This document shows positions 1 to 17,861 of a stretch of DNA of 64,000 bases, piece after piece (the stretch's first letter is position 1; each line of letters begins with the position of its first letter). Source of the stretch: a virus; the IMG/VR virus record IMGVR_UViG_3300007512_000009, positions 1 to 64,000 of that record; one strand, written 5' to 3'. The notes under the pieces were generated by a model. It was given only the letters and a program-made list of their open reading frames with translations. It had not been told where the DNA came from and did no database searches. The translations under genes and the position numbers were made by a program.

Positions 1-429
1 TTTAAACAATACTTAAGAGAAATAGACCTAAACCCAGAAGAACCACCGTTCGACCCAACGGAACTTCCAGGCTTTCCATACTTACCATATGACCCGATGG
101 TGCCACCAAATCCTTATATGCCGGCTCCTCTACCCGACCCGTCGCAACCTAACCTACCAACCACACCAGAGTACCCTGATTTACCAGAGTATCCTAATAA
201 TCCTTATTGGGACCCCGACCTATTCCCACAATGGCCCTTCCCACCAGAGTATGTTCCATCAGGGCGTTTGCCTGAACCACCGTGGATACCAAGCAGGAGA
301 GATAGTGATGGCGATGGTATTCCAGACTGGGACGACGTTGACCCTCTAGACCCTTTAAATCCTAGTTTAACACCAACAAACCCATTAGCCCCAGAATATG
401 ATGAAGATGAAGATAATGTTATCGTTTAA
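1..429 (+). CDS. Pro/Asp/Tyr-rich internal-protein-like cargo, 5' end outside window
   Basis: The frame is open from base 1, so the true start lies upstream. The first visible residues, FKQYLRE, match the leader MKSFKQYLKE of the gene at 1165, so this looks like another leader-tagged protein cut off by the window edge. An L-R-E site falls right after the leader. The rest is low complexity and acidic, rich in Pro, Tyr and Trp, with one DSDGDG calcium-loop-like motif about 30 residues before the end. No enzyme fold is recognisable and the chain looks disordered. The last 14 bases overlap the next gene. Function unknown; a head-packed cargo protein is inferred from the leader and the neighbours. 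Confidence 0.7.
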   Translation, partial: FKQYLREIDLNPEEPPFDPTELPGFPYLPYDPMVPPNPYMPAPLPDPSQPNLPTTPEYPDLPEYPNNPYWDPDLFPQWPFPPEYVPSGRLPEPPWIPSRRDSDGDGIPDWDDVDPLDPLNPSLTPTNPLAPEYDEDEDNVIV

Positions 430-1168
430 GCAATACATCATAGAAGAGTTACCGACAAAGGAAATCAAAATTTCTGAGTTTCCTAATCCCCTATCTGCAC
501 GTCTAAAAGCAATCTTTCAAAAGAAGGGTGATATGGATGGTAGTCAGGGTGATGATGTGGTTAAAACCAAATCAAAAAGTTGGAAAGCAGGAAAACTTCG
601 CCCATCTCAATCAGCAATATATCTTGGTAAATCACTAGGAATGGCCGTTGGTGGTGTAAAAGGTGGAAATTTGGGTTCTATCGTTTCTAATGATAAACAC
701 ATTCTTGACGGTCATCACAGATGGGCAGCAACTATGCTATCAGAACCAACAGCAAAAATCGGAGGTATTGAAGCAAATCTAGGAATTGGTGATTTAGTTC
801 CTGTGCTTCGTGCGTTGGGTGATTCTATTGGTAATGCACGACGAGGTGAACCAACTGGTGGAGATATTAACATCTTTAAAGCAACAGTTAAAGATGCTAT
901 AGATGCTCTAACCACTGGTAAAAACATGGCCCCCCAGTTTTATAACAAAGAAAAATCACTTGCTTGGTTGGAATCAATTGGTGGAAAAGAAGGATTAGCA
1001 AAAAGACTTAAAGACCTACAAAGTCATAGACCACCAAAAGGTGCACCACCACGAATTGAAATGCCTGTTATTGATGCAGATAAAGGTGATGAGAAGTTAG
1101 CGGCTAAACTTCTAAGAAAAGGTAAACTGGATGTACGTGAACCGTATGCAAATGGGCAACAAGCATGA
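416..1168 (+). CDS. leader-tagged protein with ParB/Srx-like domain
   Basis: The start was taken at 416 because it gives MLSFKQYIIEE, the leader shared with the following genes; an in-frame ATG at 398 would only add six residues. An I-I-E site ends the leader. Around residues 85-105 the segment ILDGHHRWAATML matches the GHHR signature of the ParB/sulfiredoxin-like superfamily, members of which act as nucleases, CTPases or kinases. The C-terminal half is basic and helical. The gene overlaps both neighbours by a few bases, so translation is probably coupled. A DNA-acting protein carried in the capsid is an inference; no catalytic activity can be assigned from sequence alone. Confidence 0.7.
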   Translation: MLSFKQYIIEELPTKEIKISEFPNPLSARLKAIFQKKGDMDGSQGDDVVKTKSKSWKAGKLRPSQSAIYLGKSLGMAVGGVKGGNLGSIVSNDKHILDGHHRWAATMLSEPTAKIGGIEANLGIGDLVPVLRALGDSIGNARRGEPTGGDINIFKATVKDAIDALTTGKNMAPQFYNKEKSLAWLESIGGKEGLAKRLKDLQSHRPPKGAPPRIEMPVIDADKGDEKLAAKLLRKGKLDVREPYANGQQA

Positions 1169-1911
1169 AATCATTCAAGCAATATCTTAAAGAATCGACA
1201 GTATTGATGGACTTAATCAATAAATACGATGACCCATTCAGTTTTCTTGCAGCCTCTATGGATGCTATTGCTAACGGTACTCTCAAACTAAAACAAAGAG
1301 GACTAGCAAACGCTCGTGAATTGATTGCCGCTTGGAATAAAGTAAAGAAAAGAAAAATCAAACTGAAAGAAGCAACCGAATACATCTTAGAAAGAAGACA
1401 AGATTTAGTAAAGGGTTGGACATTTAAAAACAAGATTGCTACATCCACCACCGACTATAACTATTATCACATCCAACATATAATTAAAGAACCTAAAAAA
1501 TTTGGTTTAGATAAAAAGAAAATATTAAAAATTATTGAAGATAGTGCTAAGAATATGAGTGTACCAAACATCGAAGCATATGTAGAAGACCAATACGAAT
1601 CCCTTGGGAATGGTATTGTGGACAATGATGTATACATCGAAGAATACCTGAAGAAAAAAGGTTATTGTATGTTTGTCGTTGATAAGACACACGGTAGTGT
1701 TGAAGGATGGGATGAAAAATCTTGCAAAATGGGTGCAAAGGCTGTAGACGATAATTACCTACCATACGAAAGAGATGGATTCAAGTTGTTTGAAATTAAA
1801 CCTGTAAAGGGTAGACCTAAATACATCACCAACAAACTAGACTGGAATGACTTCGTAGAAGGTAAAAAAGCAAAACGAAAGTATGTTTCACCAATGGCAC
1901 AATTCAGATGA
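1165..1911 (+). CDS. leader-tagged protein of unknown function
   Basis: Starts MKSFKQYLKES, very close to the T4 internal-protein targeting peptide MKTYQEFIAE, with an L-K-E candidate cleavage site. The start codon overlaps the previous stop (ATGA). The 248-residue chain is Lys-rich and helical in the first half, with a more mixed C-terminal half (about 150-235). I recognise no enzyme motif. It ends by overlapping the ATGA start of the next gene. The position in a run of leader-tagged genes suggests a virion internal protein. Confidence 0.7.
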   Translation: MKSFKQYLKESTVLMDLINKYDDPFSFLAASMDAIANGTLKLKQRGLANARELIAAWNKVKKRKIKLKEATEYILERRQDLVKGWTFKNKIATSTTDYNYYHIQHIIKEPKKFGLDKKKILKIIEDSAKNMSVPNIEAYVEDQYESLGNGIVDNDVYIEEYLKKKGYCMFVVDKTHGSVEGWDEKSCKMGAKAVDDNYLPYERDGFKLFEIKPVKGRPKYITNKLDWNDFVEGKKAKRKYVSPMAQFR

Positions 1912-2357
1912 TTTCATTTAAACAATATGTCGTAGAGTTATTCGAAAAACCATACAAGTGGAAAAAGAAAAAAGATGATGATATAGAAGCAGTGTATCAA
2001 TCAGCAACAAGTTCGAAAGATATAATAAAGGTTATATTTTCAAAGGGGTGGTCAAGAGGAATTGATAACTTGTTATTTACAGTTGGCGGTGACACCGATA
2101 CCACTGGTGGTGGTGATGCATTCAGAATAATGTCAACCGTGTTGGATATTATTAAGGACTATATTAAAAACAATGACCCAGAAGGGATAAAGTTCGCCGC
2201 AAATAAGGACGAACTCTTTGGTCAAGACTCTGAAAAAACACAAAGTCGAGAGAAACTTTATAATAAAATGATTGAACGGTTTGCTAAAAAGGCAGGATAT
2301 AAGGTGCATGCGGATAAACATAAGTACGGTACACAGTATAAGTTGACCAAAAAATGA
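1908..2357 (+). CDS. leader-tagged paralogue A (TVLDIIKDYI / SREKLY domain)
   Basis: Leader MISFKQYVVE is followed by LFEKPYKWKKK, a start typical of conserved virion-associated proteins in marine T4-like phages (family recalled, not searched). The body carries GDAFRIMSTVLDIIKDYI and later SREKLYNKMIERFAKK, a pair of motifs shared with the products at 2354 and 3182. This shared domain is probably one compact fold of about 130 residues; its biochemical role is unknown. The gene overlaps both neighbours in ATGA fashion. It may have arisen by tandem duplication with 2354 and 3182. Confidence 0.7.
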   Translation: MISFKQYVVELFEKPYKWKKKKDDDIEAVYQSATSSKDIIKVIFSKGWSRGIDNLLFTVGGDTDTTGGGDAFRIMSTVLDIIKDYIKNNDPEGIKFAANKDELFGQDSEKTQSREKLYNKMIERFAKKAGYKVHADKHKYGTQYKLTKK

Positions 2358-2824
2358 TTTCATTTAAGCAATACATCACAGAGTTATTCGACAATCCACT
2401 GAAATGGAAAGAGTTTATCAAATCACCGAGAGCAAGAAAAGCAGAGTTTCGTGTAGGTGACTTTGGATATATTATCACTATTGAAATAGGTGACAAAGGA
2501 ATAGCACAACGAATGGGCGAAAAAGTGGCAGCATCAATTGAGTTTGGACTTGCAGATGAAAAAGGTGTATCAAAAGACGGTAGACAAAATAAACACAAAA
2601 TCTTAAACACAGGCAATGCAGGTTTAGTATTCTCTACAGTCATTGATTATGCAAAATATGTTATCAAACAAGAAGGTATCGGTAAGGTCATATTCACTGG
2701 ATGGGAGCCGTCACGACAAAAGTTATATTGGAAGTTGATGAAACGATTTTCGGGAAGCATTTTTAAGGGTGGTGTCGAACGAAAAGGTTCACGGTTCGTT
2801 GGACATATAGACAAGATAAAATAA
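2354..2824 (+). CDS. leader-tagged paralogue B
   Basis: Leader MISFKQYITELFDNPLKW parallels the previous gene closely, down to the ELF and KW positions. The body repeats the family pattern: NAGLVFSTVIDYAKYVIK, then SRQKLYWKLMKRF. An I-T-E candidate prohead-protease site ends the leader. The start overlaps the upstream stop and the stop overlaps the downstream start. Function unknown. Membership in a three-gene paralogous set is visible directly; head packaging is inferred from the leader. Confidence 0.7.
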   Translation: MISFKQYITELFDNPLKWKEFIKSPRARKAEFRVGDFGYIITIEIGDKGIAQRMGEKVAASIEFGLADEKGVSKDGRQNKHKILNTGNAGLVFSTVIDYAKYVIKQEGIGKVIFTGWEPSRQKLYWKLMKRFSGSIFKGGVERKGSRFVGHIDKIK

Positions 2825-3180
2825 TGAAATCATTTAAAGAATTTGTTAACGAACATTATGATGAATACGGTATTCCAATGGATGGTGGATTGAACCATGA
2901 CCATGATGGTATGGGACCACATAGTCATCCATGGGATGCACCGTTTGATTACGATAATTGGCCTCCATTAGAAGATTGGGAGAAGGAATGGGACCCAGAT
3001 GACCAAGACGGTGATGGGAAAAAAAATTGGGAAGACGATGATTATGTTCCACCAATTCCATGGGACGAAAACAATCCAGACCACCCAGATTATGTTCCTC
3101 CAGGCCCCGTTGGACCATTTTACCCAAACGCCCCTTTATACCCAAGCGACCCACCACAAGACCCACATTGGATAGTTTAA
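2824..3180 (+). CDS. leader-tagged acidic Pro/Trp/Asp-rich protein
   Basis: Starts MKSFKEFVNEH, the same leader class, with V-N-E at the candidate cut. After the leader the protein is almost entirely low complexity: His/Asp-rich, then Trp/Asp/Pro-rich, with one DQDGDGKKNWEDDD calcium-loop-like motif near residues 58-70 and a Pro-rich tail. It resembles the truncated first gene of the window in composition. It looks disordered and highly acidic, which would suit packing with polyamines or calcium, though that is a guess. No fold is recognisable. Confidence 0.65.
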   Translation: MKSFKEFVNEHYDEYGIPMDGGLNHDHDGMGPHSHPWDAPFDYDNWPPLEDWEKEWDPDDQDGDGKKNWEDDDYVPPIPWDENNPDHPDYVPPGPVGPFYPNAPLYPSDPPQDPHWIV

Positions 3181-3181
3181 C

Positions 3182-3616
3182 ATGGGTTTATTTTCTTCAC
3201 CATCTGAAATCGACATACAGTATGAAAACGACACTGATATAAGAGGTACATTTAAAGCAGGTGATACCGACTATAAAGTGTGGGGTAGACACAACTACCT
3301 AATGAGCGGAACTAGTTTGGGTGAGAATGTGTGGGAAATGTTTTTCGCTATGTGTGAAGATGATGACAAAATTTATGGTTTGCATGACACCAAACCAAAC
3401 GGTGCAGGAAATGCAGCCAAGGTGTTTGCAACGGTGATTGAATTCATGAGATATGTAAATAAAAAACATCAACCAAGCGATTTTGTTTTCTCTGCAAAAG
3501 ATGAAAAGCAACAAAGAATATACCTAAAGTTGATTGAAAGATATCAAAAACTTGGGGAAATAAATAACATATCCACCTCTGAAAAAGGAAACATAATTAA
3601 ATTTGAAGTCGTTTAA
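3182..3616 (+). CDS. paralogue C of the TVID/RIYLKL family, without leader
   Basis: The chain contains NAAKVFATVIEFMRYVNKK and QQRIYLKLIERYQKL, matching the shared domain of the genes at 1908 and 2354. It starts MGLFSSPSEIDIQY and has no FKQY leader, so it may act inside the infected cell, or reach the head by another route. It follows the previous stop by one base and overlaps the next gene by 14 bases. Function unknown. Confidence 0.65.
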   Translation: MGLFSSPSEIDIQYENDTDIRGTFKAGDTDYKVWGRHNYLMSGTSLGENVWEMFFAMCEDDDKIYGLHDTKPNGAGNAAKVFATVIEFMRYVNKKHQPSDFVFSAKDEKQQRIYLKLIERYQKLGEINNISTSEKGNIIKFEVV

Positions 3617-4805
3617 GCAATACATCTTAACAGAATCCAAAAATACACACCTAGAGCATCTTGAAGATGAAATCTGGAATGCGGGTTCTGCTGGCGCTGA
3701 CAACGCTATCAAATTTTTAAAAGGTGTATCAGACATGCTTACCAGCAATGTCAGTTCGTCCCACAATGTTACGGTTAAGTGGGATGGTGCACCTGCTATT
3801 ATTGCAGGAGTAAACCCAGAAAACAATAAATTCTTTGTTGGAACAAAAAGTGTATTTAATAAGGGTACACCAAAGATTAACTACACTAGTAGGGATGTTG
3901 ATAAAAACCACAGTGGTGACCTTGCTGTTAAGTTGAAAATTGCTCTAAATGAACTACCTAAAATTGGAATAAAGGGTGTGCTTCAGGGTGATTTTATGTT
4001 TGACTCCAGTAGTCTGGGTTCTATGAAAATGGACGGTAAAAGTCATACTACTTTCACACCCAACACCATAACTTACGCAGTGGAAGATGGTAGTCCTCAG
4101 TCTAAAGCAATTAAAGGTGCTAAAATGGGTATAGTATTTCACACTGAATACAAAGGTAAAATACTTGCTGACATGAAAGCATCATTCAGACCGAACATCA
4201 AAAAACTTAAAAAGACCAAAGCGGTATGGTTCAGAGATGCTGATTTTAAAGACGAAAGCGGTGCATCTACTTTAACTACTGGTGAAAAAAAATCTGTCGA
4301 TAAAGCAATCGAGAATGCATCTAGTAAACTAAGTAAGGCATCGGGATTTATTGATAACCTCCAAAGGGACATAACACCTAAAATAAAGACTTATGTAAAC
4401 AGTACGATTAAGAACGGTTTGTCCAATTCCGATTATAAAGGTTTCGTGTCTTATATAACTGACCAGTTTGACACAGCCATTAGTAAACTAAAGACAGACA
4501 GAGGCAAAGAGAATAAATCCAAAAATCGTGATGATGCTCTAAAATATCTTAAGACCAATAAATCGGGTCTTACCTCCCTGTTTGATTTACACAAATCATT
4601 GAGTGTAGCAAAAATGATGTTGATAAAAAAACTCGAAAAAATAGGTGGTATTGGTACATTTATTAGAACGGATGACGGATTCAAAGCAACAGCACCAGAG
4701 GGATTTGTGGCTGTTGATGATACAGGAAAAGCCTTAAAATTAGTGGATAGACTTGAATTTAGTCGGGCCAATTTTACGGTTGCAAAAAACTGGGTTAAGG
4801 GCTAA
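3603..4805 (+). CDS. leader-tagged nucleotidyltransferase/ligase-like protein (KWDG motif)
   Basis: TTG start giving MKSFKQYILTES, chosen because it places the conserved leader at the N-terminus. About residues 55-85 read VKWDGAPAIIAG followed by VGTKSVFN, the K-x-D-G motif I of covalent nucleotidyltransferases (DNA/RNA ligases, capping enzymes). Downstream GVLQGDFMF and MGIVFHTEYKG sit where motifs III and IV would fall. The C-terminal 200 residues are helical and Lys-rich. I believe homologues occur in T4-like marine phages as an uncharacterised family. If the reading is right it would be an ATP-dependent ligase or nucleotide-transferring enzyme packed in the head. Bases 4406-4438 are an exact copy of a segment of the fibre gene at 42318. 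Confidence 0.65.
   Translation: MKSFKQYILTESKNTHLEHLEDEIWNAGSAGADNAIKFLKGVSDMLTSNVSSSHNVTVKWDGAPAIIAGVNPENNKFFVGTKSVFNKGTPKINYTSRDVDKNHSGDLAVKLKIALNELPKIGIKGVLQGDFMFDSSSLGSMKMDGKSHTTFTPNTITYAVEDGSPQSKAIKGAKMGIVFHTEYKGKILADMKASFRPNIKKLKKTKAVWFRDADFKDESGASTLTTGEKKSVDKAIENASSKLSKASGFIDNLQRDITPKIKTYVNSTIKNGLSNSDYKGFVSYITDQFDTAISKLKTDRGKENKSKNRDDALKYLKTNKSGLTSLFDLHKSLSVAKMMLIKKLEKIGGIGTFIRTDDGFKATAPEGFVAVDDTGKALKLVDRLEFSRANFTVAKNWVKG
4406..4438 (+). repeat. 33-bp exact repeat, copy 1 (copy 2 at 43283-43315)
   Basis: The 33 bases from GATTAAGAAC through to TTATAA are identical at 43283-43315, on the same strand and in the same codon phase, encoding IKNGLSNSDY in both proteins. The host genes are otherwise unrelated: a ligase-like protein here, a tail fibre there. 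The flanking bases differ at once on both sides. Confidence 0.95.
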
Positions 4806-4811
4806 GACTGT

Positions 4812-4863: not shown

Positions 4864-5064
4864 ATGGCTAGTAAAGAATGGGTAAGGTTTAATGAAGACG
4901 CAAAAGCAAAACAACATAGAACAGTACATGTTGAAAAATATGGTGGTGAATTTGTCTATCGTGGTAACAGCAGAGGCTGGCACTGGGTAAACGGTACTTC
5001 AACACCAAAACCTGAAGTTGCATCATTTAGCAAAAAGAAAAAAACAACAACAAAGCAAAAATAA
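4864..5064 (+). CDS. small basic protein, unknown
   Basis: 66 residues, MASKEWVRFNEDAKAKQHR at the start and a Lys-rich tail (KKKKTTTKQK). The middle contains YGGEFVYRGNSRGWHWV, an aromatic-rich patch that could bind nucleic acid. The start was chosen at 4864 because it follows a GAGGGAA ribosome site and a late promoter; a longer in-frame start at 4753 would run back into the previous gene. It overlaps the next start by one base. No leader of the FKQY type. Probably expressed late. Confidence 0.6.
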   Translation: MASKEWVRFNEDAKAKQHRTVHVEKYGGEFVYRGNSRGWHWVNGTSTPKPEVASFSKKKKTTTKQK

Positions 5065-5405
5065 TGAGCAATAGGGTTGATTATCTTAGAGAACGTGTGA
5101 TACGTAACATTATTGATAATGTTGTATTAAGCGAGGCGCCCGGCTCACCTGCTGTTGGTGGCGATGGTGGTGGTGGTACTAAATCAGGCGGCGGTGACAG
5201 TTATTTTACTGGAGGAGTTGCTGGGATGGAATTGGATAATGTTTTCTTTCCAACGGCAGATGTTATGAAACAAAAAATACAACAACCACAGTTTAATAAA
5301 GCACAACAATTATGGTTTATGAATAACTGGCAAAAATTACCACGTAATATCCAAGCACAAATGTTAAATTTATTAAAAAAGAAGAAGAAAAGATATGAAT
5401 ATTAA
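5064..5405 (+). CDS. leader-tagged small protein with Gly-rich linker
   Basis: 113 residues. The N-terminus MSNRVDYLRERVIRNI runs as a helix to VVLSEAPG, where L-S-E|A is an excellent gp21-type site. A Gly-rich stretch follows, then a helical C-terminal part ending KKKKKRYEY. The leader is longer than the FKQY class but ends in the same way. Overlaps both neighbours. Function unknown; probably a head internal protein. Confidence 0.65.
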   Translation: MSNRVDYLRERVIRNIIDNVVLSEAPGSPAVGGDGGGGTKSGGGDSYFTGGVAGMELDNVFFPTADVMKQKIQQPQFNKAQQLWFMNNWQKLPRNIQAQMLNLLKKKKKRYEY

Positions 5406-6327
5406 TTTTGAACAGTTTGACCCACTTGATAGAAAATCAAAGTCTACCATTATTAATGAGCAAAGAAAAAGAATGCCTAGAGGTGATATGCTTCAAAAGA
5501 TTATGAGTATGATAAACCAAGGTAAAAAAAAGAAAAGAGGCCCGCAACCTCAGGGAGCAGAACGCTCTATGATGCCTGGTGGTATGGATGACCTTGGTGG
5601 ATTGATGGGTATGATGCAAGGTCAGCAAAAACCTGGCCAAATGCCCCCAGAGATGGATATGTGGGATGCTTACTCTGGTAAAAAACAAAAATTCATGACA
5701 AAAAATGCTGAAGAAGGAAAGCCTGGACTAGAATCTTCAAGAGATATTAATGGTAACATCATGAAAGGTTACATGGATGCAGCCGCCTCAATGAGAATTT
5801 CACAACCCTCTGGTGGTAATGACCCAACTAAATTTAATGTTCCTCATGGGTCGGGTAGTGACCCAAGGATGGTTCGTGGATTATCACCAGAAGATTTACC
5901 ATTACAAATGGATTATAAACAATTAGACCAAATAAAGAAACCGTCATTAGAAGCAGGAATGAAAGACCCTCAGGTTGCCGCACCACATCAAACGCCTGGC
6001 GCACCTGTTGATATTCCAGATGGTATGGGTGGTACTGACCAACAAAAATCGCAAGCAATGAAAGGGGCCGCATTCTTTGGTGGTAAACCAGAAATGCCTG
6101 AACCACAACAAGGTGGAATGCCTGGCGGTGGTGGTGACATGGGTAGCATGATGCAACAAATGATGGGTGGTGGTCAACCTCAAGGTGGTGGTCAACCTCA
6201 AGGAATGCCTCCAATGCCGAAGATGGGTGGAAAAGAAGGTCAAGCACCAGACATGATACAAAAACTAATGTCAGACCCAAAAATCAAAAAATTTTTGCAA
6301 AAATTAATGCAAGGTATGAAAAAATAA
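5395..6327 (+). CDS. Met/Gly/Pro/Gln-rich protein
   Basis: 310 residues dominated by Met, Gly, Pro and Gln, with many GGM, MPG and QPQG repeats, especially at residues 240-275 (GGGQPQGGGQPQG). The N-terminus MNINFEQFDPLDRKSK continues to TIINEQRK, giving an I-N-E site near residue 23. The C-terminus (MIQKLMSDPKIKKFLQKLM) is an amphipathic helix. Composition suggests a disordered, Met-rich chain. The context among leader-tagged genes suggests a virion protein. I do not recognise the family. Confidence 0.6.
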   Translation: MNINFEQFDPLDRKSKSTIINEQRKRMPRGDMLQKIMSMINQGKKKKRGPQPQGAERSMMPGGMDDLGGLMGMMQGQQKPGQMPPEMDMWDAYSGKKQKFMTKNAEEGKPGLESSRDINGNIMKGYMDAAASMRISQPSGGNDPTKFNVPHGSGSDPRMVRGLSPEDLPLQMDYKQLDQIKKPSLEAGMKDPQVAAPHQTPGAPVDIPDGMGGTDQQKSQAMKGAAFFGGKPEMPEPQQGGMPGGGGDMGSMMQQMMGGGQPQGGGQPQGMPPMPKMGGKEGQAPDMIQKLMSDPKIKKFLQKLMQGMKK

Positions 6328-6328
6328 A

Positions 6329-6853
6329 ATGTCACTACAGAATAAAATATATCTACAAAGAATAATTCAGAATCTAAATGAGGCGAATTGGTTATCACCC
6401 ACCCCACCCCAACAGTCACCATGGCCACCAGAAACACCAGCCGAAGAAAACCCTTTTCAAGAATATTGGCCATTAAGACCACCCAAAAAAGTACCACATA
6501 GACCCGATTTTACCCCACATGATGAAATTCCAGGCGGGGCTGGTGGTGGAATGTCAGAAAAACAATTATTAAAACTTATCTGGTGGTTAATACATCAAAA
6601 GACTAGTTTGCTGGATGATAATTTTCTGGGTAGATTGTATTTAGGTCTACCAGAACCACCTAGTGATGCATGTAGGGCTGACCCCGTTTGTTATCAAGAA
6701 TACCTTGATGCATTATGGGCTTGGTTAGAAGATGCACTAGGTGACGCATTACAGGACTATTGGGATGAATATCAAGACTGGCTTGAAGACCATCCAGGCA
6801 GTAGTTTTTGGGATTGGTTACTCGCAATAGATTGGGGTCAGATGTTCTACTAA
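6329..6853 (+). CDS. Trp-rich protein with SLQNKIYLQRI leader
   Basis: Starts MSLQNKIYLQRIIQNLNEA, a leader almost identical to that of the gene at 15035, and ends it with L-N-E|A. A Pro/Trp-rich stretch follows, then a helical segment (QLLKLIWWLIHQKTSLL) and an acidic Trp-rich C-terminus (YWDEYQDWLEDHPGS). The stop overlaps the next start. The Trp content is unusually high. Function unknown; cargo inferred from the leader. Confidence 0.65.
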   Translation: MSLQNKIYLQRIIQNLNEANWLSPTPPQQSPWPPETPAEENPFQEYWPLRPPKKVPHRPDFTPHDEIPGGAGGGMSEKQLLKLIWWLIHQKTSLLDDNFLGRLYLGLPEPPSDACRADPVCYQEYLDALWAWLEDALGDALQDYWDEYQDWLEDHPGSSFWDWLLAIDWGQMFY

Positions 6854-7254
6854 TGTCTGACCATAATAAAGAAATACGAAATTTAACGGAATCCGTTAAT
6901 AACCTATATGAACAAGGTGGATGGCCTGGTGGTAGCGGTCAAATTGGAAGGTCTTTATGGCATTTGTTTTTATGGTGGCAATTCCAGAGGCGGATGCAAA
7001 AAATACTTGATGGAGGCGGGCTTAAGGGCTGGGCTCTTCGTATCTTCATGATGGGCTGTGACATGGGATGTTTATTTCAGATGTGGTTAGATGCAGGACA
7101 ACCTAGCAACTTTGAAGAATGGTTAGAAAGCCTAACGAATCCTTCTGATGATGATGATGTTACCCCTGATGACGGTGGTGGTGGTGGAACTGATACTAAA
7201 CCCCCACCCCCCATAGAATATCCAAAGAATTGGCCACCACCAATGCGGGCATAA
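6853..7254 (+). CDS. Trp/Gly-rich protein, probable leader-tagged cargo
   Basis: The start at 6853 overlaps the previous stop; an earlier in-frame ATG at 6808 is less likely. The N-terminus MSDHNKEIRNLTESVNN holds an L-T-E|S site. The middle is hydrophobic and Trp/Met-rich (LWHLFLWWQFQRRMQKIL, then GCDMGCLFQMWL), possibly membrane-active. The C-terminus is Asp/Gly/Pro-rich. It resembles its upstream neighbour in composition. No family recognised. Confidence 0.6.
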   Translation: MSDHNKEIRNLTESVNNLYEQGGWPGGSGQIGRSLWHLFLWWQFQRRMQKILDGGGLKGWALRIFMMGCDMGCLFQMWLDAGQPSNFEEWLESLTNPSDDDDVTPDDGGGGGTDTKPPPPIEYPKNWPPPMRA

Positions 7255-7438: not shown

Positions 7439-9574
7439 ATGGATTCATCAGATTTTATTAAGCAGTATATCCTCAATGAAAAACGTGATAAAGGGATAGT
7501 TTTTACCTTTGGTAGATTCAGTCCACCTCATGTAGGTCATGAATTATTAATTAATAAAGTCTTAAAAGTTGCTAAGCAACATAAGTTTGAACATGGAATT
7601 TATGCGAGTAAATCCCATGACAAAACAAGAAACCCTTTAAAATACAAAGACAAAATAGCATTCATGAAAAAAGCATTCAAGAATGCTAATGTTATTAACG
7701 ACCCTAAATTAATAAATCCGTTTTTTGTTGCAAAAAAACTCAGCGACAACGGATACAAACATGTAATCTTAGTTGTTGGTGGTGATAGAGTAGATGAAAT
7801 GGATAAAAACATTAGACCATACATCAACCACTCAGACCCAAATAAATCTTTCAACTTCGAAACTTTCAAAGTGGTAAGTGCGGGTCGACGTGACCCAGAC
7901 TCAAGTGATGTATCTGGTATGTCTGCATCTAAAATGAGAGCAACGGCAGCCGATGGAGATTTTGAAACTTTCAAATCTGGTGTTCCATCTGGAATGTCTG
8001 ATAAAGATGCACAAAAAATGTATAATACCATAAGGAAAGAAATGGGTATAAGAGAAGAAATAGAATCATTTTTTGATAGCATAGAATTGTTAGGTATCTC
8101 AGAGGAGAAATTAGTAAATCTAGCAAGAGAAAGACTATCAGAAGATGCTTTAAACTACATGAACCTTAACGAACAATCAGAAGATTCAAAACCAACCTTG
8201 GTTGTACTTTCAAAATACAGTGATAAAGACGACCAGAGTAATACAATAGAAAAAGTGGAAAAATCTGCAGATGAAATGGGTATCGATTTTTATTCAATAT
8301 CAGTAGACGATGCTTATATTGTAGACGAAGACATGTCTGACAATGAATTGGTTATCCATAATTATGATGGTAAAAACAATAAAATAACTATCGATACTGA
8401 AAACACGGTATGTTGGCCACGTGGTGGTGTATTAACAAATTTTTCTGGTGTTGGTTTATTAAGTGTGTTACAAGATTCAGACATATTTTGTGTTAATAAA
8501 CTGAGCAATATGGAATTGGCTAGAAACAAATATGCTACTGCGATGCTCCTAGAGAGGGAACAAATCTCATCACCCAGAACAGCACTAGTTTCTAGTGAAG
8601 AAGCAATTGATATAGCATTGGAAAAAATAGGTGGTGAATTCCCTGTCGTATTAAAAACTCTAACTGGTGCTGAGGGTATTGGTGTTTCTATTGTAGAATC
8701 GTATGAATCACTGGTAAGTGTATTACAATCTTTATGGAAATTTGATGCTGAAGTGATTATGCAGGAATATTTTGAGATTGAACACGATATAAGAACAATT
8801 GTTCTAGACAATGATATTATTGCCAGCATAAAAAGAGTAAAAGGCAGTAAAGATTTTAGAACCAATAAATCATTGGGCAATGACACAGAGTTGTACGAAC
8901 TTTCTGAAAAAGAGAAGTCATTAATATTAAAAACAGCAAAAGCATCTGGTTGTTATCTTTGTGGTGTAGACCATATAACTGTCGGTGAAGATGACCACAA
9001 AATCTTAGAGGTCAATGGTTCGCCCGGCAGCGGTGCTGACAAATATACAATTTATTTTGGTGATGAAGAATCGGGTGACGGTAAAATGGTCATTGATTAT
9101 ATAGTTGAATATATCACTGATAAAGACAACTGGAAATATTCTTCTAGAGAAATCGGTATGATAGAGCAAGTTGAAATTGAAGGTATTGGTACTCTTAATG
9201 CTAGAGCAGACACTGGAAACACTGGTCTTAACTCATTACATGCTGAGGATATTACAGTTGAAGATGGAAACGTTACATTTACCACAGAATTCGGTAAAAG
9301 TATAACTCTACCTCTTGATGATACCTCTAAAATAAGAATAGACAATGACCTAGAAAAAAGACCTGTTGTATTGTTTAATATCAAAATGGGTAAGAAGTCC
9401 TATAAAGATGTGCCGTTTACACTAAACGATAGAGATGGTATGGACTACTCGGTATTGCTTGGTCAAGATTTCTTAAAAAGAGCAAATTTTTCTGTTAATG
9501 TCAAAAAGAAATATGAACTGTCAGAGGATGAAAAAAAGATTTTAAATATTAAATTTAACCTTCTTGAGGCATAA
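7439..9574 (+). CDS. leader-tagged NMNAT + RimK-type ATP-grasp ligase + RimB-type protease fusion
   Basis: 711 residues in three recognisable parts. Residues 18-205 form a nucleotidyltransferase domain: GRFSPPHVGH (25-34) is the (T/H)xGH motif and SGMSASKMR (159-167) the second signature of the NMNAT/cytidylyltransferase family. Residues 253-565 form an ATP-grasp ligase: VVLKT (Lys406), DFRTNKSLGND (472-482, like RimK FRSN), and EVNGSPG (524-530). Residues 575-690 look like the retropepsin-like partner of RimK: ARADTGN (Asp591), SLHAED and VLLGQDFL (672-679). The N-terminus MDSSDFIKQYILNEK is a stretched version of the FKQY leader with L-N-E. Known relatives make NAD, add glutamate to protein tails, or cleave proteins; one polypeptide with all three is unusual. 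Confidence 0.8.
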   Translation: MDSSDFIKQYILNEKRDKGIVFTFGRFSPPHVGHELLINKVLKVAKQHKFEHGIYASKSHDKTRNPLKYKDKIAFMKKAFKNANVINDPKLINPFFVAKKLSDNGYKHVILVVGGDRVDEMDKNIRPYINHSDPNKSFNFETFKVVSAGRRDPDSSDVSGMSASKMRATAADGDFETFKSGVPSGMSDKDAQKMYNTIRKEMGIREEIESFFDSIELLGISEEKLVNLARERLSEDALNYMNLNEQSEDSKPTLVVLSKYSDKDDQSNTIEKVEKSADEMGIDFYSISVDDAYIVDEDMSDNELVIHNYDGKNNKITIDTENTVCWPRGGVLTNFSGVGLLSVLQDSDIFCVNKLSNMELARNKYATAMLLEREQISSPRTALVSSEEAIDIALEKIGGEFPVVLKTLTGAEGIGVSIVESYESLVSVLQSLWKFDAEVIMQEYFEIEHDIRTIVLDNDIIASIKRVKGSKDFRTNKSLGNDTELYELSEKEKSLILKTAKASGCYLCGVDHITVGEDDHKILEVNGSPGSGADKYTIYFGDEESGDGKMVIDYIVEYITDKDNWKYSSREIGMIEQVEIEGIGTLNARADTGNTGLNSLHAEDITVEDGNVTFTTEFGKSITLPLDDTSKIRIDNDLEKRPVVLFNIKMGKKSYKDVPFTLNDRDGMDYSVLLGQDFLKRANFSVNVKKKYELSEDEKKILNIKFNLLEA

Positions 9575-10574: not shown

Positions 10575-11150
10575 ATGGTAGCGATATTTGACACATTTGT
10601 TGCTTACAAATTCATTAAAATCTTGACTACACCGTGGGAAAAAACAGACGCATTTAAACTCGGATTGATTGACAAAAAGGGTAATCCTCTTGTTAAACGT
10701 TCTAAGTTGAAAACCGATAAACAAAAGAAAGCATACACCATCGTTCATGTTCTAGTTTGGAACATAAAAAGATTATTAGATAAAATACCAATGACCCGCA
10801 CAAAACTGGGTTCGTTTGCTACTGCACTATGGTTACTTAAAGACAAAAAAGTAATTAAAAAGAAAGATACAGTAGAGAGTGTCTTTCTTGAATATACTGG
10901 TTTAAAACTAAAAAAGAAAAACATTATGGAATCATATCTAGATGGTGATAACCAAATAAAGGCTGGTATTTACATGTCTAGAAACACACTTCCTGAATTA
11001 TATGACTTTATAGATAATAAGGATACTATCATAGTTGAGCAGGAAACCCCTGAGGGTGAAATGTTAGGTGTTTTTATTTTTTCAGGTATCCATAAGAAAA
11101 CAGGTAATAAGGTGGTATTTTCAAATGAAGACGTTCTCAGAATTAGTTGA
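10575..11150 (+). CDS. conserved T4-like phage structural-type protein
   Basis: 191 residues starting MVAIFDTFVAYKFIKILTTP, then EKTDAFKLGLIDKKGN and KKAYTIVHVLVWNIKRLLDK. I recognise this as a conserved family of marine T4-like phages that is often listed among virion proteins; the role is not known. Pro/Gly content is low and the first 115 residues are helical and basic. It overlaps the start of the next gene by 26 bases. It has no FKQY-type leader. Confidence 0.65.
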   Translation: MVAIFDTFVAYKFIKILTTPWEKTDAFKLGLIDKKGNPLVKRSKLKTDKQKKAYTIVHVLVWNIKRLLDKIPMTRTKLGSFATALWLLKDKKVIKKKDTVESVFLEYTGLKLKKKNIMESYLDGDNQIKAGIYMSRNTLPELYDFIDNKDTIIVEQETPEGEMLGVFIFSGIHKKTGNKVVFSNEDVLRIS

Positions 11151-14100
11151 TAGTTTAAATGAAGATATAATATCCGAAGCAGTACCTGCTATGTCTTCTG
11201 GTAAGTCCGTAGCATCTTCTATGACCAATGCCACTGTTTCAAACCAAACGGCATACGCAGCCAAACCTATGGGTTGGAACAGATTAATAACAAGAGATGG
11301 TAGGGTAACTGCACCAACTACAAAGAAAGATTTTGTAAGAAACCTAATATCAATTATCGGTCAAGAAGAAGCAGAAAAATACCACAACGAATTTAAAGAA
11401 TATGTAGATTTGTTATGGGGTAAACGTGCTCAAGGTCATAGCGATTTGATGATTGACGTTGAAAAATCATTTGATAAATCAAACAGACCATACACTGAAT
11501 TTGAATTTACCACCACTGACGTTGAAAACATGAGGGATGGTCAAGGTGGTTATAGAGATGATGGTCAAGGTGGTTACGATGATGGTCGACAACCGACAAT
11601 GGATATCCAAGGTGGCGGTTACGATGGGCCTCTTATTGAACCACCAGATTGGACTGGGATATTTCCAACTACTGATGTATGTGCAAACCCGCCCTGTGGT
11701 CCACAGGATAGACCAATCCCACCACACAAACCATTTACAATAGGTCATGAAGGGGAAGTCGAAGATATACCACCACACACTGGGGCTTGTGAGTTCCCAC
11801 CTTGTTATGTAGACACTGGTGGTGACATCAACGTACAAACTCAAGACCCAAACCTAGGAATTGGGGATAGTGGAGAAGATGACCCTGACCCAATAGATAC
11901 CTCAAGTGTTGGTGGTGGTGACACAGTAATACCACCAACCATAGACGTTCAGACACAATCTGGAGATTCTAGTATAACACCAAGCGGTACTATTGACCCA
12001 ACAGACGATAATCTTTACATCGGTGGTGGTGATACCGACCCCGTCGACCCTGACGATGATTTTGAACTAAAAGGTAAAAAGAAAAAATGGTCAAATTATA
12101 ATGCATTTTTAAATGCTATGGGGTGGGATAAAAAATATGCAGTACAAGAAAAGTACACTTTAAATGATTTTCGTAGCAACAGTTTAAGTGAAGCAGAAAC
12201 GTTGCACTGGAATACCTTAGACGATGCTGAGAAAAAAGATTTCGCTAAACACGCTAAAATGAATGCTAATATTGTTTTGAAAAAGTCTTGGAAACAACTA
12301 AAATCTTCTGAGAAGAAAAAGTTAGCACAGATGATTAAGAAAACAACTGGTGGTGAGTTTGCTCTTGAAGAAGAACTCACACCTTCCCAAGCAAAGAAGA
12401 AAGAAGAAATCGTTCTTTCATTGAAGAAAAAGAAGAAAGAATTTCAAGAACGATATGGTAATGACTGGGAAAGTGTGATGCATGCGACTGCTACTAAGAT
12501 GGCAAAGAAAAATGAATCCATTAATGAAGACGACAATACCATAGGGATGGAACAATTAACTGCGTTGTTGGGTAGATGGGGTTCATCAGTTGTTCCAGGC
12601 ACGCCCCCTGATTACGACGGAGATGGCGTTGTGAACATGGCAGACATTTTGTGGCTTCTTGACCACTGGGGAGAAGATATTATAATTGGTTTCAATGGTG
12701 ATGACCAAGAAACACCACAGTTGGGTCTTGCACCATCTATTAAAAACAATGGTAACAAGGGTATATTGTCACGTGGTTTATTTGGTGAATCTATGTTGAG
12801 AGAAAGACCTACACCTCCCACACCTACCAAATATCCACAATCACCATATCCACCAAGACCACCTGACCCCATACTTCCAGGCGATGTTGTACCTGTGTCA
12901 CCAGATGGTGAACCATGGGACATCGAGGAAGCAATCGTTCGTGGTGATAGAAGCGGTGGAATGCCAACAGGTGCAGACCGTGGTAGTGATGAAAAACCAT
13001 TAATGAAGTGGTTGACTGAACTAGAAAGAGAACTAAAGAAAATGCGTTCTTCTTATGATAACGTAGATGCAGATGTTGCTATTTGGTTATATGGTAAGGG
13101 ACGTTCAGCAAAACAAACTGCAAAAGTCCTTGCTACCAGAAAAGAATCCGTTGAACTGGGTGAAGCAAAGATTTCCAGAAACCCTCAACTAAAAATCGGA
13201 CTCCATAAAGGAATCTCCGTTGGTAAGGGTAAAAAAGTCATCCTATCTAAAGGAATAAAGGGTAAAGGATGGACTCTAAATGCGGGTGACGAAGTAATTG
13301 CTTATCCGTATGATGGTGACAGGGTTGCAATACTCAATCCCAATAACGCTTGGGAGTTTGTAGCAAAACGACACATCAAAGGTGGATTTAGAGAATCCGC
13401 TAACGAAGCAGTAGATGAAGCAAAAGACAAACAAGGACATGTTACATTTGAGTTTAAATCACTTGCAGATTCATCAAAATTTGAAAAAGAGTTGAGAATT
13501 CTTAAACGAAAATTTAGTAAAATGTTCAATACCAAGTTATCTGGAAAAGAAGTGACCATACTTTTTGATAAAAGGTTTAGTACAAAAGATGAAGAATTCA
13601 GCACAAAAGATGTAGATATGGTTAGGGTTTTACAGCAAAAGCATAAAGGAAATCTATTAGATTGGTCTGGTAAAAACCCATTCGGTGTTGACACCAGACT
13701 ATTGAAAAAATCTGCATCAGACCTACGAAAAGAATCCGTAGATGCAACACGTTTTGTACGTGCACATGGTAAAACACCACGTGGTTCGGGAACTTGGTTC
13801 TTTACAATCCATCGAGGCGGTATTGAATTCGATAAGCATAAAGAAGGTAAAGATTATGTTAAAATCAAAGATACTTATTATACAGCCGCTGCCAAGAAAG
13901 CAGAAAAAATGCTTAAAAGTAAAAAACTATTTGTTGCTGAATCTGTAATTGTTAATGAAGAACTTGACCTAAGAGCATTTATTGAAAAAATCAAAAAAGC
14001 CTTTAAGATGAGGGATTTCGATAAAAGTGAACGAGCAAGAGCAAAAAGGATAAAAAAAGCAAACAGACAGTATAGTAAACTTTTAGGTCTACATGCTTCT

Positions 14101-14838
14101 TTTGACCCACTTGCTGAAGCAACCGTTTCTGAAGCACGAACGAAAGATGCTATCTTGGTTGTGCTCGATTCAATTGAAAAACTATCTAAGAAACACAAAT
14201 CAACCGTTGACAACATAGTTAAAGATACCAAACTTAAAAAAGATTTTGTGCAAGATGCAGTAGAATTTTGGTTGGACGATAAGAAAATCAAAAAGATGGG
14301 GTCTGGAAGGAATACCCATTACATGCCAGAATCTAACAGATATAGTCTTAGTGATTTTTTTGAATCAGTAGAAGAAGAAACTCCTGCTACAAACACAGCA
14401 GGTGTTGCTCATACTGGTGATGACCCAAGAGTTGGGATTAAAAAGAAAAAGAAGAAAAAGAAGAAAGGTGAATTATCCCCTAGAGGTATGACGATGATGA
14501 TGGATAATGCACAAGAAATTGGTGAATCCCTTGAACGTTCACTTCGTAGTTTAGCAACAAGTGATGAAACACCAAGATTTAGAAATGAATATTGTGGTCA
14601 TCCTGTTTTCAAGGTGAGCGAAGGTGAATTTGGTAAATGCAAAACTAGACGAGCAAAGGGTGAACGATGGAACAAATTCTTTGAGGATGATTCACCAAAT
14701 TATGGTGTTATTAGAAAATACTCAAGACGAAATCCAAATAAACCAATTGTTATTCAGAATGAACTAAATGGTGAAATGTCGATTTATCGTCGCAGAATGA
14801 ATGACCAACGACTAAAGCACAATAGAAGGATGAAATAA
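11125..14838 (+). CDS. leader-tagged mosaic polyprotein with dockerin-like domain
   Basis: 1237 residues; the start at 11125 gives MKTFSELVDSLNEDIISEA, a leader-like helix with L-N-E and I-S-E|A sites. The chain alternates folded-looking blocks with linkers carrying E-rich sites: SLSEAE (about 353), ESINEDD (about 470), ESVELGEAK (about 673), ESANEAVDEA (about 755), ESVDATRF (about 868), AESVIVNEEL (about 938), LAEATVSEA (about 996), SLSDFFESVEEE (about 1074). Residues 130-320 are Gly/Asp/Pro-rich. Residues 475-520 hold LLGRWG...YDGDGVVNMADILWLLDHWG, a dockerin/EF-hand-like calcium motif. I infer a polyprotein cut by the prohead protease into several internal proteins. No enzyme activity is evident. 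Confidence 0.7.
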   Translation: MKTFSELVDSLNEDIISEAVPAMSSGKSVASSMTNATVSNQTAYAAKPMGWNRLITRDGRVTAPTTKKDFVRNLISIIGQEEAEKYHNEFKEYVDLLWGKRAQGHSDLMIDVEKSFDKSNRPYTEFEFTTTDVENMRDGQGGYRDDGQGGYDDGRQPTMDIQGGGYDGPLIEPPDWTGIFPTTDVCANPPCGPQDRPIPPHKPFTIGHEGEVEDIPPHTGACEFPPCYVDTGGDINVQTQDPNLGIGDSGEDDPDPIDTSSVGGGDTVIPPTIDVQTQSGDSSITPSGTIDPTDDNLYIGGGDTDPVDPDDDFELKGKKKKWSNYNAFLNAMGWDKKYAVQEKYTLNDFRSNSLSEAETLHWNTLDDAEKKDFAKHAKMNANIVLKKSWKQLKSSEKKKLAQMIKKTTGGEFALEEELTPSQAKKKEEIVLSLKKKKKEFQERYGNDWESVMHATATKMAKKNESINEDDNTIGMEQLTALLGRWGSSVVPGTPPDYDGDGVVNMADILWLLDHWGEDIIIGFNGDDQETPQLGLAPSIKNNGNKGILSRGLFGESMLRERPTPPTPTKYPQSPYPPRPPDPILPGDVVPVSPDGEPWDIEEAIVRGDRSGGMPTGADRGSDEKPLMKWLTELERELKKMRSSYDNVDADVAIWLYGKGRSAKQTAKVLATRKESVELGEAKISRNPQLKIGLHKGISVGKGKKVILSKGIKGKGWTLNAGDEVIAYPYDGDRVAILNPNNAWEFVAKRHIKGGFRESANEAVDEAKDKQGHVTFEFKSLADSSKFEKELRILKRKFSKMFNTKLSGKEVTILFDKRFSTKDEEFSTKDVDMVRVLQQKHKGNLLDWSGKNPFGVDTRLLKKSASDLRKESVDATRFVRAHGKTPRGSGTWFFTIHRGGIEFDKHKEGKDYVKIKDTYYTAAAKKAEKMLKSKKLFVAESVIVNEELDLRAFIEKIKKAFKMRDFDKSERARAKRIKKANRQYSKLLGLHASFDPLAEATVSEARTKDAILVVLDSIEKLSKKHKSTVDNIVKDTKLKKDFVQDAVEFWLDDKKIKKMGSGRNTHYMPESNRYSLSDFFESVEEETPATNTAGVAHTGDDPRVGIKKKKKKKKKGELSPRGMTMMMDNAQEIGESLERSLRSLATSDETPRFRNEYCGHPVFKVSEGEFGKCKTRRAKGERWNKFFEDDSPNYGVIRKYSRRNPNKPIVIQNELNGEMSIYRRRMNDQRLKHNRRMK

Positions 14839-14839
14839 G

Positions 14840-15034
14840 ATGGGTATTTTTAAAGATAAATGGGCAGAGAACCTGATGAGGTCTAAAAAAGAACAAGCCA
14901 GTGAACCTTCGGAAGGTCTTGGTGATACAGTTAAGAAAATTACTAATGCTATGGGTATAAAACCTTGCGACGAGTGTGAGGAGAGAAGGAAAAGTCTTAA
15001 TAAGAAATTCCCATTTAAAAGGAAGAACAAATAA
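14840..15034 (+). CDS. small CxxC protein
   Basis: 64 residues: MGIFKDKWAENLMRSKKEQ, a Glu/Ser linker, then GIKPCDECEERRKSLNKKFP and a basic end. The KPCxxCxxRxxxLNKxFP pattern is one I know from small phage proteins near tail and lysis genes; its function is not established. One CxxC pair could bind metal as a dimer. Starts two bases after the previous stop. No leader. Confidence 0.6.
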   Translation: MGIFKDKWAENLMRSKKEQASEPSEGLGDTVKKITNAMGIKPCDECEERRKSLNKKFPFKRKNK

Positions 15035-15364
15035 GTGTCTTTACAAAACAAAATATATCTACAGAGAATACAACAAACCATTAAAGAACAATCCGCACAC
15101 GGCCATGAAGGACAATCTTGTGAGGAAGCACATCCAGACATGTCACATGAGGAGTGGGAAGCAACCCACGATGACCATGAAGGGTGTTCAACCTGTGGAG
15201 AATCCGTTATTACTGAAGAACAATTAACTGAAGCATTAATGGTTTTAAGTGAAGATAAAAAAGAAGTATGGAATCCATTTCCAGAGAGTTGGTGGAAACC
15301 TGAGCCTAAAGAAGAACCGACACTTGGTAGTCCAATGAAACCATTACATAAGTACAAAGTATGA
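15035..15364 (+). CDS. leader-tagged acidic protein (SLQNKIYLQRI class)
   Basis: GTG start directly after the previous stop, giving MSLQNKIYLQRIQQTIKEQS; eleven leader residues are identical to the gene at 6329, and the DNA is nearly identical over about 20 bases. I-K-E is the candidate cut. The body is His/Glu-rich with CEEAHPDMSHEEW and CSTCGES, a possible metal site. The C-terminus is Pro/Trp-rich. Function unknown; inferred head cargo. Confidence 0.65.
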   Translation: MSLQNKIYLQRIQQTIKEQSAHGHEGQSCEEAHPDMSHEEWEATHDDHEGCSTCGESVITEEQLTEALMVLSEDKKEVWNPFPESWWKPEPKEEPTLGSPMKPLHKYKV

Positions 15365-15657
15365 CTTTACAAAACAGACAATATTATAATAACATCCACG
15401 GTCTTAAAGAGGCTAGAGAGAAAACGCTTACTGTACTGTTTAAAACAGACGAGCAGATGATGGAACGGATATATGAAAGAGATTTGAAACGTGAGTTTAA
15501 GAAACTTTATAAGTCTACTAACTATGTAAAAAAGGGAAACTTCCGAGGTTTTGAGGTTGTATTCAAAGGTGAAGTAAAAGAACTAGTAAAAGTAACGAAA
15601 TACATTGAGAAATTGGACAGGAAAAATAAAATCTACGATAGCAAGGTGTTTTCATGA
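15361..15657 (+). CDS. leader-tagged basic small protein
   Basis: MTLQNRQYYNNIHGLKEAR is a diverged form of the SLQNKIYLQ leader with L-K-E|A. The remaining 80 residues are basic with alternating strands and helices (LTVLFKTDEQMMERIYERD, FRGFEVVFKGEVKELVKV), possibly a small alpha/beta fold. ATGA-type overlap with both neighbours. Function unknown. Confidence 0.65.
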   Translation: MTLQNRQYYNNIHGLKEAREKTLTVLFKTDEQMMERIYERDLKREFKKLYKSTNYVKKGNFRGFEVVFKGEVKELVKVTKYIEKLDRKNKIYDSKVFS

Positions 15658-15905
15658 AATCGTTTAAAGAATATCTAGAACTAAAAGAACATGACCCATG
15701 GAATTATCCAAACATTGACCACGACACATATCATGACTGGCTAAATTCATTGTCGTGGTGGGACAGACTTTTTGGAGTCCCTGGCCCTGAATACATGCCC
15801 AAAGGTTGGAGAAAACCAGTACCAGTACCACCAACACCATCAAAACCTGCCGACCCAATGAACCCTACAGACCCTTCAAACCCCATGCGTCGAGAAACAT
15901 ACTGA
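15654..15905 (+). CDS. leader-tagged Pro-rich small protein
   Basis: MKSFKEYLELKEH starts an 83-residue protein of the FKQY leader class with L-K-E. After it comes a Trp/His/Asp-rich part (DHDTYHDWLNSLSWWDRL) and a Pro-rich tail with PVPVPPTPSKPADP. It resembles the gene at 2824 in design: leader plus low-complexity acidic Pro-rich body. The start overlaps the previous stop. Function unknown. Confidence 0.65.
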   Translation: MKSFKEYLELKEHDPWNYPNIDHDTYHDWLNSLSWWDRLFGVPGPEYMPKGWRKPVPVPPTPSKPADPMNPTDPSNPMRRETY

Positions 15906-15920
15906 GTAAGGAAAACAAAA

Positions 15921-16908: not shown

Positions 16909-16952
16909 TAACAGTTTTAAACCCGTACAAACAGATAAAAAGGATTATCAGT

Positions 16953-17351
16953 ATGAAACCGAACAATTTTAGAAGTCTAAGCGAATCAGCGAGAAAGGTA
17001 TTAAATAGAGAATACACATGTTCTCCTACTAAAGAGCAGTTACAATCACTTATCACTGAGCAAGGTACAACCATGCCTGGCGAGGCAGCAATTCAATCAA
17101 TCATGAGCAACTGGGGTAATAATAACTGTGGTGGCCCATGGTGTGGAGATTTTAATGGTGATGGAGTTGTTGATGTACAAGACTTGCTATGGGTTCTTCA
17201 CAATTGGGGAGATTTTGGTCCTCAAGGCGCTCAAGCACCTGCACCTACTTTGACTACACAACGACCATCACAACGACCAACAACTGGAGGAGTCATGCGT
17301 CCCCCATCACAACGACCACAACGAAGCAATTTTGGGATTCGGAAGACGTAG
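16953..17351 (+). CDS. leader-tagged dockerin-like calcium-binding protein
   Basis: MKPNNFRSLSESARKVLNRE shares a leader type with the gene at 17409 and holds an L-S-E|S site. Residues 45-90 contain IQSIMSNWG, CGGPWCGDFNGDGVVDVQDL and LWVLHNWG, a dockerin/EF-hand-like calcium loop flanked by two short helices ending in WG. The same design occurs inside the mosaic protein at 11125. The tail is Pro/Gln/Arg-rich. A GGATTAT ribosome site precedes the start. Function unknown; dockerins normally bind cohesins, and I see no cohesin here. Confidence 0.65.
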   Translation: MKPNNFRSLSESARKVLNREYTCSPTKEQLQSLITEQGTTMPGEAAIQSIMSNWGNNNCGGPWCGDFNGDGVVDVQDLLWVLHNWGDFGPQGAQAPAPTLTTQRPSQRPTTGGVMRPPSQRPQRSNFGIRKT

Positions 17352-17408
17352 ATAATAATATAAACCCAGACTTGATAGAAAATTGATGTAGTTGGTTGTT
17401 CACTTAGT

Positions 17409-17861
17409 ATGAAACCAGAAGATTTCAGAAATTTAACAGAAAGTGCTAGGCAGATTTTGTCTGGTGAACCTTCATCACTAGTTGAATTCAACAACATGTT
17501 ACAGCCTAACTATCTTGAACGTGAATATGACCTTGATGACCTACCAGACGACCTCTTCCCAGAAAAAGAAGAAGAACCAGAAGAAATAACCCCCAACCCA
17601 TATGGTCTAACTCTTTTGGGAATTTTAGGTTTATTATCGAGAGGGCTTACATTTGCTCAAATTGCCGGAATGTATGGTGTACCCATATGGTTTGTGTTGC
17701 TGTTTCTGAGGGCAAACCCAGATTTGAGTCCAGACAACCCAATCACTGACCCATATAAACCAGGCGGAAAGGAAGAAGGCAACCCAGAGCATCCCGGCTG
17801 GGGTGGTGGTAGCAGGTGGAGAGTTGGTGCACCATCAGATAACCAACCACACCAAGCATAA
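17409..17861 (+). CDS. leader-tagged protein with hydrophobic centre
   Basis: MKPEDFRNLTESARQILSGE parallels the leader of the gene at 16953, with L-T-E|S. An acidic linker follows (DLDDLPDDLFPEKEEEPEE). Residues 60-102 hold two hydrophobic helices (YGLTLLGILGLLSRG and VPIWFVLLFLRANP) and the end is Pro/Gly-rich. A packed protein with a membrane-active centre could help DNA entry, but that is a guess. It converges on the resolvase gene with a 4-base gap. Confidence 0.6.
   Translation: MKPEDFRNLTESARQILSGEPSSLVEFNNMLQPNYLEREYDLDDLPDDLFPEKEEEPEEITPNPYGLTLLGILGLLSRGLTFAQIAGMYGVPIWFVLLFLRANPDLSPDNPITDPYKPGGKEEGNPEHPGWGGGSRWRVGAPSDNQPHQA

Follow-up and report, generated by a model that had tools for sequence, protein, structure and literature searches.

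What is the role of a nearly constant ten-residue N-terminus shared by a run of mostly unrelated genes at one end of the IMG/VR virus record IMGVR_UViG_3300007512_000009? We analysed a window comprising bases 1-64,000 of this 126,210-base record, the first 17,861 bases of which form a block of 26 genes (g01 to g26), all on the plus strand and many with stop-to-start overlap. A first-pass annotation had counted about twenty block genes with short leaders ending in [ILV]xE within the first 24 residues, and had likened these to the leaders that target the internal proteins (IPs) of phage T4 into the prohead. We consider it very probable that the block leaders are capsid-targeting sequences (CTSs) of the T4 internal-protein type, which would deliver cleaved cargo into the head; the support for this reading is good for the MKSFKQY-like leaders and moderate for the diverged leaders of g15, g16 and g19. 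Its gene content assigns the phage to the marine T4-like phages, as do its relatives: Pelagibacter phage HTVC008M, Methylophilales phages Melnitz and T4-like cyanophages, for which the records give the family Kyanoviridae.

The T4 CTS is ten residues long and sufficient for targeting, with positions 4 and 7 acting in targeting and positions 8 and 10 in processing; Asp at position 10 prevents processing, and the prohead protease gp21 cuts after L/I-x-E (PMC9026906). The close-variant block leaders have F/Y4, Y/F7, I/L/V8 and E10, matching these four key positions of T4. The comparison had been drawn with MKTYQEFIAE as the start of IPI to IPIII; two genes in the T4 record do start MKTYQEFIAEA, and the IPI leader is merely similar (PMC9026906). 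When only the first seven leader residues were fixed (n = 74 leaders), position 8 was Ile or Leu in 62 (84%) and position 10 was Glu in 55 (74%, background 5.5%) and Asp in one. The residue after the Glu was Ala in 26 of 80 leaders (33% vs. 7% background, ca. 5-fold), and Val occupied position 8 in just three of the 80, the search having allowed I, L and V equally. On its sequence, the leader family has the pattern of a gp21 substrate. The first-pass annotation had proposed a check for gp21 outside the window, and the genome does encode it (PF03420, E = 7.5e-44), together with the scaffold protein gp22 (PF25623, 1.9e-66), at 72-75 kb, ca. 55 kb downstream of the block, where the two genes adjoin one interpreted as gp23. 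We considered, and set aside as very unlikely, the explanation that the leader directs its proteins elsewhere (tail, membrane or replication compartment) and shares with the T4 CTS a resemblance only: it is hard to see what Glu10 and Ile/Leu8, which are cleavage residues, would do in a different targeting signal, Ala is enriched after the Glu, and leader-bearing proteins are detected in virions, as described below.

The leaders are far more frequent at gene starts than chance would allow. Five ATG codons of the 126-kb genome open a match to a strict T4-derived pattern, M..[FY]..[FY][ILV].E, built from T4 mutational data, and all five lie inside the block; the frequency of the pattern at non-start codons predicts 0.09 such codons (Poisson 4e-8). 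Related loci have the strict pattern at 99 ATG codons vs. 1.8 expected, an excess which is inflated because the loci were chosen partly by the DUF6267-leader pattern and share ancestry. Degenerate DNA encoding MKSFKQYIxE matched 34 stretches in viral contigs and a codon-permuted control matched none; all of the matches open a reading frame, and the bodies behind them are many and varied.

The leader is also a module separable from the body behind it. In the block, g04 (1908-2357) begins MISFKQYVVE/LFEKP and its paralogue g05 (2354-2824) begins MISFKQYITE/LFDNP (the slash marks the predicted cut), and a further paralogue, g07 (3182-3616), begins MG/LFSSP, so that what g07 lacks is precisely the part ahead of the predicted cut. 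The three form one DUF6934-like family, an exception to the annotated claim that the block bodies are unrelated to one another, which holds for most of the remainder. Their paralogy is what favours reading the shared N-termini as gene-duplication remnants within one protein family, an explanation which we likewise set aside, as extremely improbable, given that ca. 40 body clusters carrying the leader in relatives have no detectable similarity outside it and that the leaderless paralogue begins at the cut site. An alignment of 37 tagged proteins gave the consensus MKSFKQYIxE with almost nothing conserved beyond. The leader is thus portable, as had been supposed, being found on dozens of unrelated bodies in relatives, and it also recurs there at the same place. 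For example, g08 (3603-4805) has the leader MKSFKQYILTE with a TTG start (ATG in the closest relative, locus L009) on a DUF6267/PHROG 455 body; this body begins KNTHLEH directly after the leader in Melnitz, in C48C1 and in the majority of 80 viral loci, and stands directly after the start codon, without a leader, in P-HM2, P-RSM6, S-SZBM1 and S-8S56. The nucleotidyltransferase neighbouring DUF6267 has a leader in Melnitz, P-RSM6, DSL-LC02, S-SZBM1, S-CREM2 and S-SCSM1 and none in P-HM2. The leader of g02 (416-1168), MLSFKQYIIE, is invariant at S3, F4, K5, Y7, I8 and E10 across three relatives. In L009, g03 (1165-1911; leader MKSFKQYLKE) is fused to a g04-type domain and the fusion has one leader, MKSFKQYISE; other tagged genes stand in for some window genes, and two extra tagged genes lie upstream of g02; g03 has no relative among the named phages. 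In L009 (73-3892), g02 is also joined to genes resembling those at the 119-123 kb end of the studied contig, which makes it probable that the tagged block extends upstream of window base 1.

Published mass spectrometry (MS) places leader-bearing proteins in the virions of relatives. Table 3 of the S-CREM2 study (PMC10665884) lists an S-adenosylmethionine (SAM) hydrolase, a kinase and a cytidylyltransferase among the detected virion proteins; all have strict leaders (MKDFDSFLEE, MKRFDAFLTE and MKNFSSFLTEA, respectively), and the strict leader occurs in 0 of 161 undetected S-CREM2 proteins (Fisher 0.0027). Near-leaders are present on the products of open-reading frames (ORFs) 13 and 136. The ORF12 product (L096:7704-10313), a virion-detected Cas9-like HNH protein, has RFASFMAEA at about residue 18, which suggests that the nuclease is tagged or that its start was called wrongly. 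In S-SCSM1 an NMNAT annotated in the record as "virion protein" has the leader MKSFLQFLKEA, and most of the genes between mazG and DNA primase, seven in number, encode annotated virion proteins; several of the annotated virion proteins in this interval (L102:26358-33307) have no CTS-like leader, which we read as a second packaging route or a further leader class. In S-SZBM1 (PMC9146016) the cytidylyltransferase, which begins MRFRQFIIEA, was detected and its leaderless DUF6267 neighbour was not, and Sullivan 2010 (PMC3037559) places the cytidylyltransferase family in S-SM1 virions; nucleotidyltransferases homologous to that of g15 are virion proteins in cyanophages. Pooled over S-CREM2 and parts of the S-SZBM1 and S-SCSM1 records, the strict leader is found in four of 52 detected non-structural proteins vs. 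two of 464 undetected proteins (p = 0.0012) and a broader leader in seven of 52 vs. seven of 464 (p = 1.4e-4), shared ancestry making both p-values optimistic.

Several points weigh against the capsid-targeting reading. Virion proteomics, which the annotation had named as its check, finds leader-bearing enzymes in purified virions of related cyanophages and misses some tagged proteins: the strict-leader S-SZBM1 proteins 191 and 192 and the leader-bearing S-SCSM1 protein 30 went undetected. Most detected non-structural virion proteins have no leader, and the S-CREM2 authors caution that CsCl-purified virions may hold contaminants (PMC10665884). The MS support comes from cyanophage relatives, neither the studied phage nor a near relative, and the broader pattern was fixed after the S-CREM2 list had been seen, hence the strict figure is the cleaner. 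The leader sequences themselves share ancestry, so p-values based on them are optimistic. Lastly, in some leaders of DUF6267 proteins, such as MFSFKGYSSSG, the two aromatic residues are retained and the cut site is absent. This loss of (I/L)xE was seen in L033, L035-L038, L044, L049, L063 and others, and the DUF6267 proteins concerned are possibly targeted and left uncut.

How many block genes carry such a tag depends on how the leader is defined. All nine leaders quoted in the first-pass annotation are present in the block. The close MKSFKQYIxE variants number eight: besides g02 to g05 and g08, they are found on g01 (1-429), where FKQYLRE is truncated, with its start beyond the contig end, on g06 (2824-3180), as MKSFKEFVNE, and on g23 (15654-15905), as MKSFKEYLELKE on a short proline-rich body; the bodies of g01 and g06 are proline-rich and acidic. 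Three diverged leaders resemble the CTS and match the T4 targeting residues only approximately, those of g15 (7439-9574; MDSSDFIKQYILNE), which has cytidylyltransferase/NMNAT-like, RimK ATP-grasp and protease-like domains, g16 (9622-10131; MKTYKQLIE) and g19 (11125-14838; MKTFSELVDSLNEDIISE/A, as MKTFSELVDSLNE...ISEA), which encodes a 1,237-residue protein. Ca. 11 of the 19 leaders are therefore CTS-like, and the T4 likeness that had been claimed for the whole set does not extend to the other eight genes, which have different N-termini ending in [ILV]xE. Among these, g10 (5064-5405) ends VLSE/A (VMNE/A in L009) and g11 (5395-6327) IINE/Q (IVE/Q in L009). Type B (MSLQNKIYLQRI) is found on g12 (6329-6853; MSLQNKIYLQRI...LNE/A), g21 (15035-15364; GTG start, IKE/Q) and g22 (15361-15657; LKE/A), and again at 118,379. 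Type C, MKPxxFRxL[ST]ESAR, is on g25 (16953-17351; MKPNNFRSLSE/S) and g26 (17409-17861; MKPEDFRNLTE/S), and type D, NKxxRNLTExVNNLYE, on g13 (6853-7254; NKEIRNLTESVNNLYE), at 117.7 kb and in L009. The block genes g07, g09, g14, g17, g18, g20 and g24 have no leader.

The annotated count of about twenty was right (18 genes plus the truncated g01), though about a quarter would be expected by chance: [ILV]xE lies in the first 24 residues of 18 of the 25 complete block genes vs. 28 of 109 genes elsewhere in the genome (Fisher 2.3e-5), and in 27% of internal 24-mers from the same proteins. Single cases that are not CTS-like are weaker for this reason, and we rejected the broad count as evidence for individual genes. 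We regard it as quite possible, if somewhat short of probable, that only the ca. 11 CTS-like leaders are head tags and that the N-termini of types B, C and D hold [ILV]xE by chance, a narrower form of the capsid-targeting explanation and compatible with it. The frequency of the motif in other N-termini or internal 24-mers (26-27%) agrees with this, as does the finding that types B-D are hardly found beyond this genome and L009; yet within the genome each type stands on more than one body, a gene at 71,976, among those for the prohead core, has a start resembling type B, and the Glu is retained in the L009 orthologues of g10 and g11 and in its type-D gene.

The bodies themselves give some indication of what would be delivered. 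Tagged bodies in relatives include a SAM lyase, zeta-like and adenylate kinases, SET and HNH proteins, a protein kinase, HD_4 (a family which includes alarmone hydrolases) and an ADP-ribosyltransferase-like protein. The last (L125:10599-11495) has the leader MKSFKQYISE and a match just under the Pfam cut-off; it is reminiscent of T4 Alt. Beside its gene lies a tagged HD_4-type protein with a leader ending at 10579, and the same HD_4 protein occurs at L107:279-845. Such an enzyme content is of the kind that would be expected for proteins delivered early to the host. The same content bears on whether the tagged proteins are instead scaffold or core components which aid head building, as in the assembly role of T4 IPIII, with no delivery to the host. 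We judge this unlikely. T4 IPIII mutants do exhibit head-assembly defects (PMC9026906), the 71,976 gene with its type-B-like N-terminus is in the T4 core-gene position, and several window bodies are low-complexity, proline-rich and acidic; however, many bodies in relatives are enzymes without a plausible structural role (SAM lyase, kinases, adenylate-kinase-like, HD_4, ADP-ribosyltransferase-like and NMNAT-like), and the tagged set turns over among close relatives. The block products range from 83 to 1,237 residues, with isoelectric points of 4.1 to 9.9 and masses of up to 139 kDa, and many are acidic or enzymatic; they lack the small basic bodies of the T4 IPs, and we therefore treat them as CTS-tagged cargo and not as members of the IP family.

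Within the block, the AlphaFold model of the g08 DUF6267 protein has a pLDDT of 82, and its KWDGAPA motif (K59, D61, G62) is invariant and reminiscent of ligase/nucleotidyltransferase motif I. Compared with the PDB, the model gave no significant match, the nucleotidyltransferase domains of NAD+-dependent DNA ligase and RNA ligase being weak (E 0.3-4), so a ligase-like reading of the motif remains a lead. The DGHHRW motif of g02 recalls ParB-like proteins by eye; its AlphaFold model (pLDDT 42, from only four sequences) was not used. DxDGDG calcium-loop-like motifs occur in several block proteins (1-429, 2824-3180, 11125-14838 and 16953-17351), and g19 and g25 have in common a stretch, GDGVVxxxDxLWxLxxWG, that is dockerin-like by eye and has no Pfam match. 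Beyond the block, on the opposite strand, are a trypsin-family protease with a lipoprotein-like signal (18555-19370) and a pyridoxal phosphate-dependent enzyme of the PALP family (19435-20340).

The closest known system is the CTS of T4 IPI, IPII and IPIII (Mullaney and Black; PMC9026906). In both, a ten-residue leader has aromatic residues at positions 4 and 7, Ile or Leu at 8 and Glu at 10, Ala follows the cut, the bodies are unrelated, and one genome encodes gp21 and gp22 as well; T4 has three small basic IPs plus Alt, whereas the marine T4-like phage studied here has 8-19 tagged genes, many acidic or enzymatic. That a CTS enables T4-like phages to package varied proteins is a known notion (PMC9026906), and leader-based IP loci are established in T-even phages (Repoila 1994; Silas 2025, PMC12373910). 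These loci, too, are hotspots, in which the leader identifies IP genes that are not homologous, and at least 10 types have been reported; the characterised members are anti-restriction inhibitors of Tequatrovirus, in contrast to the enzyme-like bodies of these Kyanoviridae-like phages. T4 Alt, a head-packaged ADP-ribosyltransferase cut by gp21, parallels the tagged L125 protein, although its propeptide has seven residues and belongs to one gene. Ejected head proteins of the giant phages SPN3US and phiKZ (PMC5694885) also have N-terminal propeptides cut by a gp21-like protease, but these are mostly >100 residues with other cleavage motifs. Homologous or analogous proteins (NMNAT/cytidylyltransferase, kinase and SAM hydrolase) are known from cyanophage virions (PMC10665884, PMC9602691, PMC9146016, PMC3037559), and the available text of these papers proposes no packaging signal; the leader supplies one. 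In the main text of open-access papers we found no earlier description of CTS-like leaders from cyanophages or pelagiphages. New, it seems, are the count of tagged genes in a genome, the presence of enzymes in the cargo, the occurrence in a marine lineage and the connection to virion enzymes left unexplained so far.

The proposed route is as follows. During prohead assembly, the aromatic residues at leader positions 4 and 7 would dock the protein on the scaffold core, gp21 would cut after the Glu at (I/L)xE/A and release the body inside the head, and the freed body would remain with the DNA, probably to be ejected into the next host, where it may act; by analogy with the T4 IPs and Alt, injection of the tagged proteins into the host is likely. 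The leader would serve as a swappable N-terminal tag, gained, lost or replaced on unrelated bodies, many of them enzymes, so that the phage would carry a changing set of pre-made proteins. Whether this amounts to a general, fast-swapped head-loading system in marine T4-like phages is, in our view, evenly balanced: a ten-residue tag, perhaps with three more leader classes, would load ten to twenty or more proteins per head, and the host would be re-programmed by pre-made proteins before phage expression, in relatives by a set which on the same reading would include NMNAT-like, SAM-depleting, HD_4 (alarmone-hydrolase-like), kinase and ADP-ribosyltransferase-like proteins. The leader offers a mechanism for the published, unexplained virion nucleotidyltransferases, kinases and SAM hydrolase. 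It also provides a sequence rule for predicting, among the many unknown proteins of these abundant marine T4-like phages, those that are carried in the virion, and opens to direct testing the cargo of the head, the take-over of the host ahead of gene expression and the way in which swappable delivery tags evolve.

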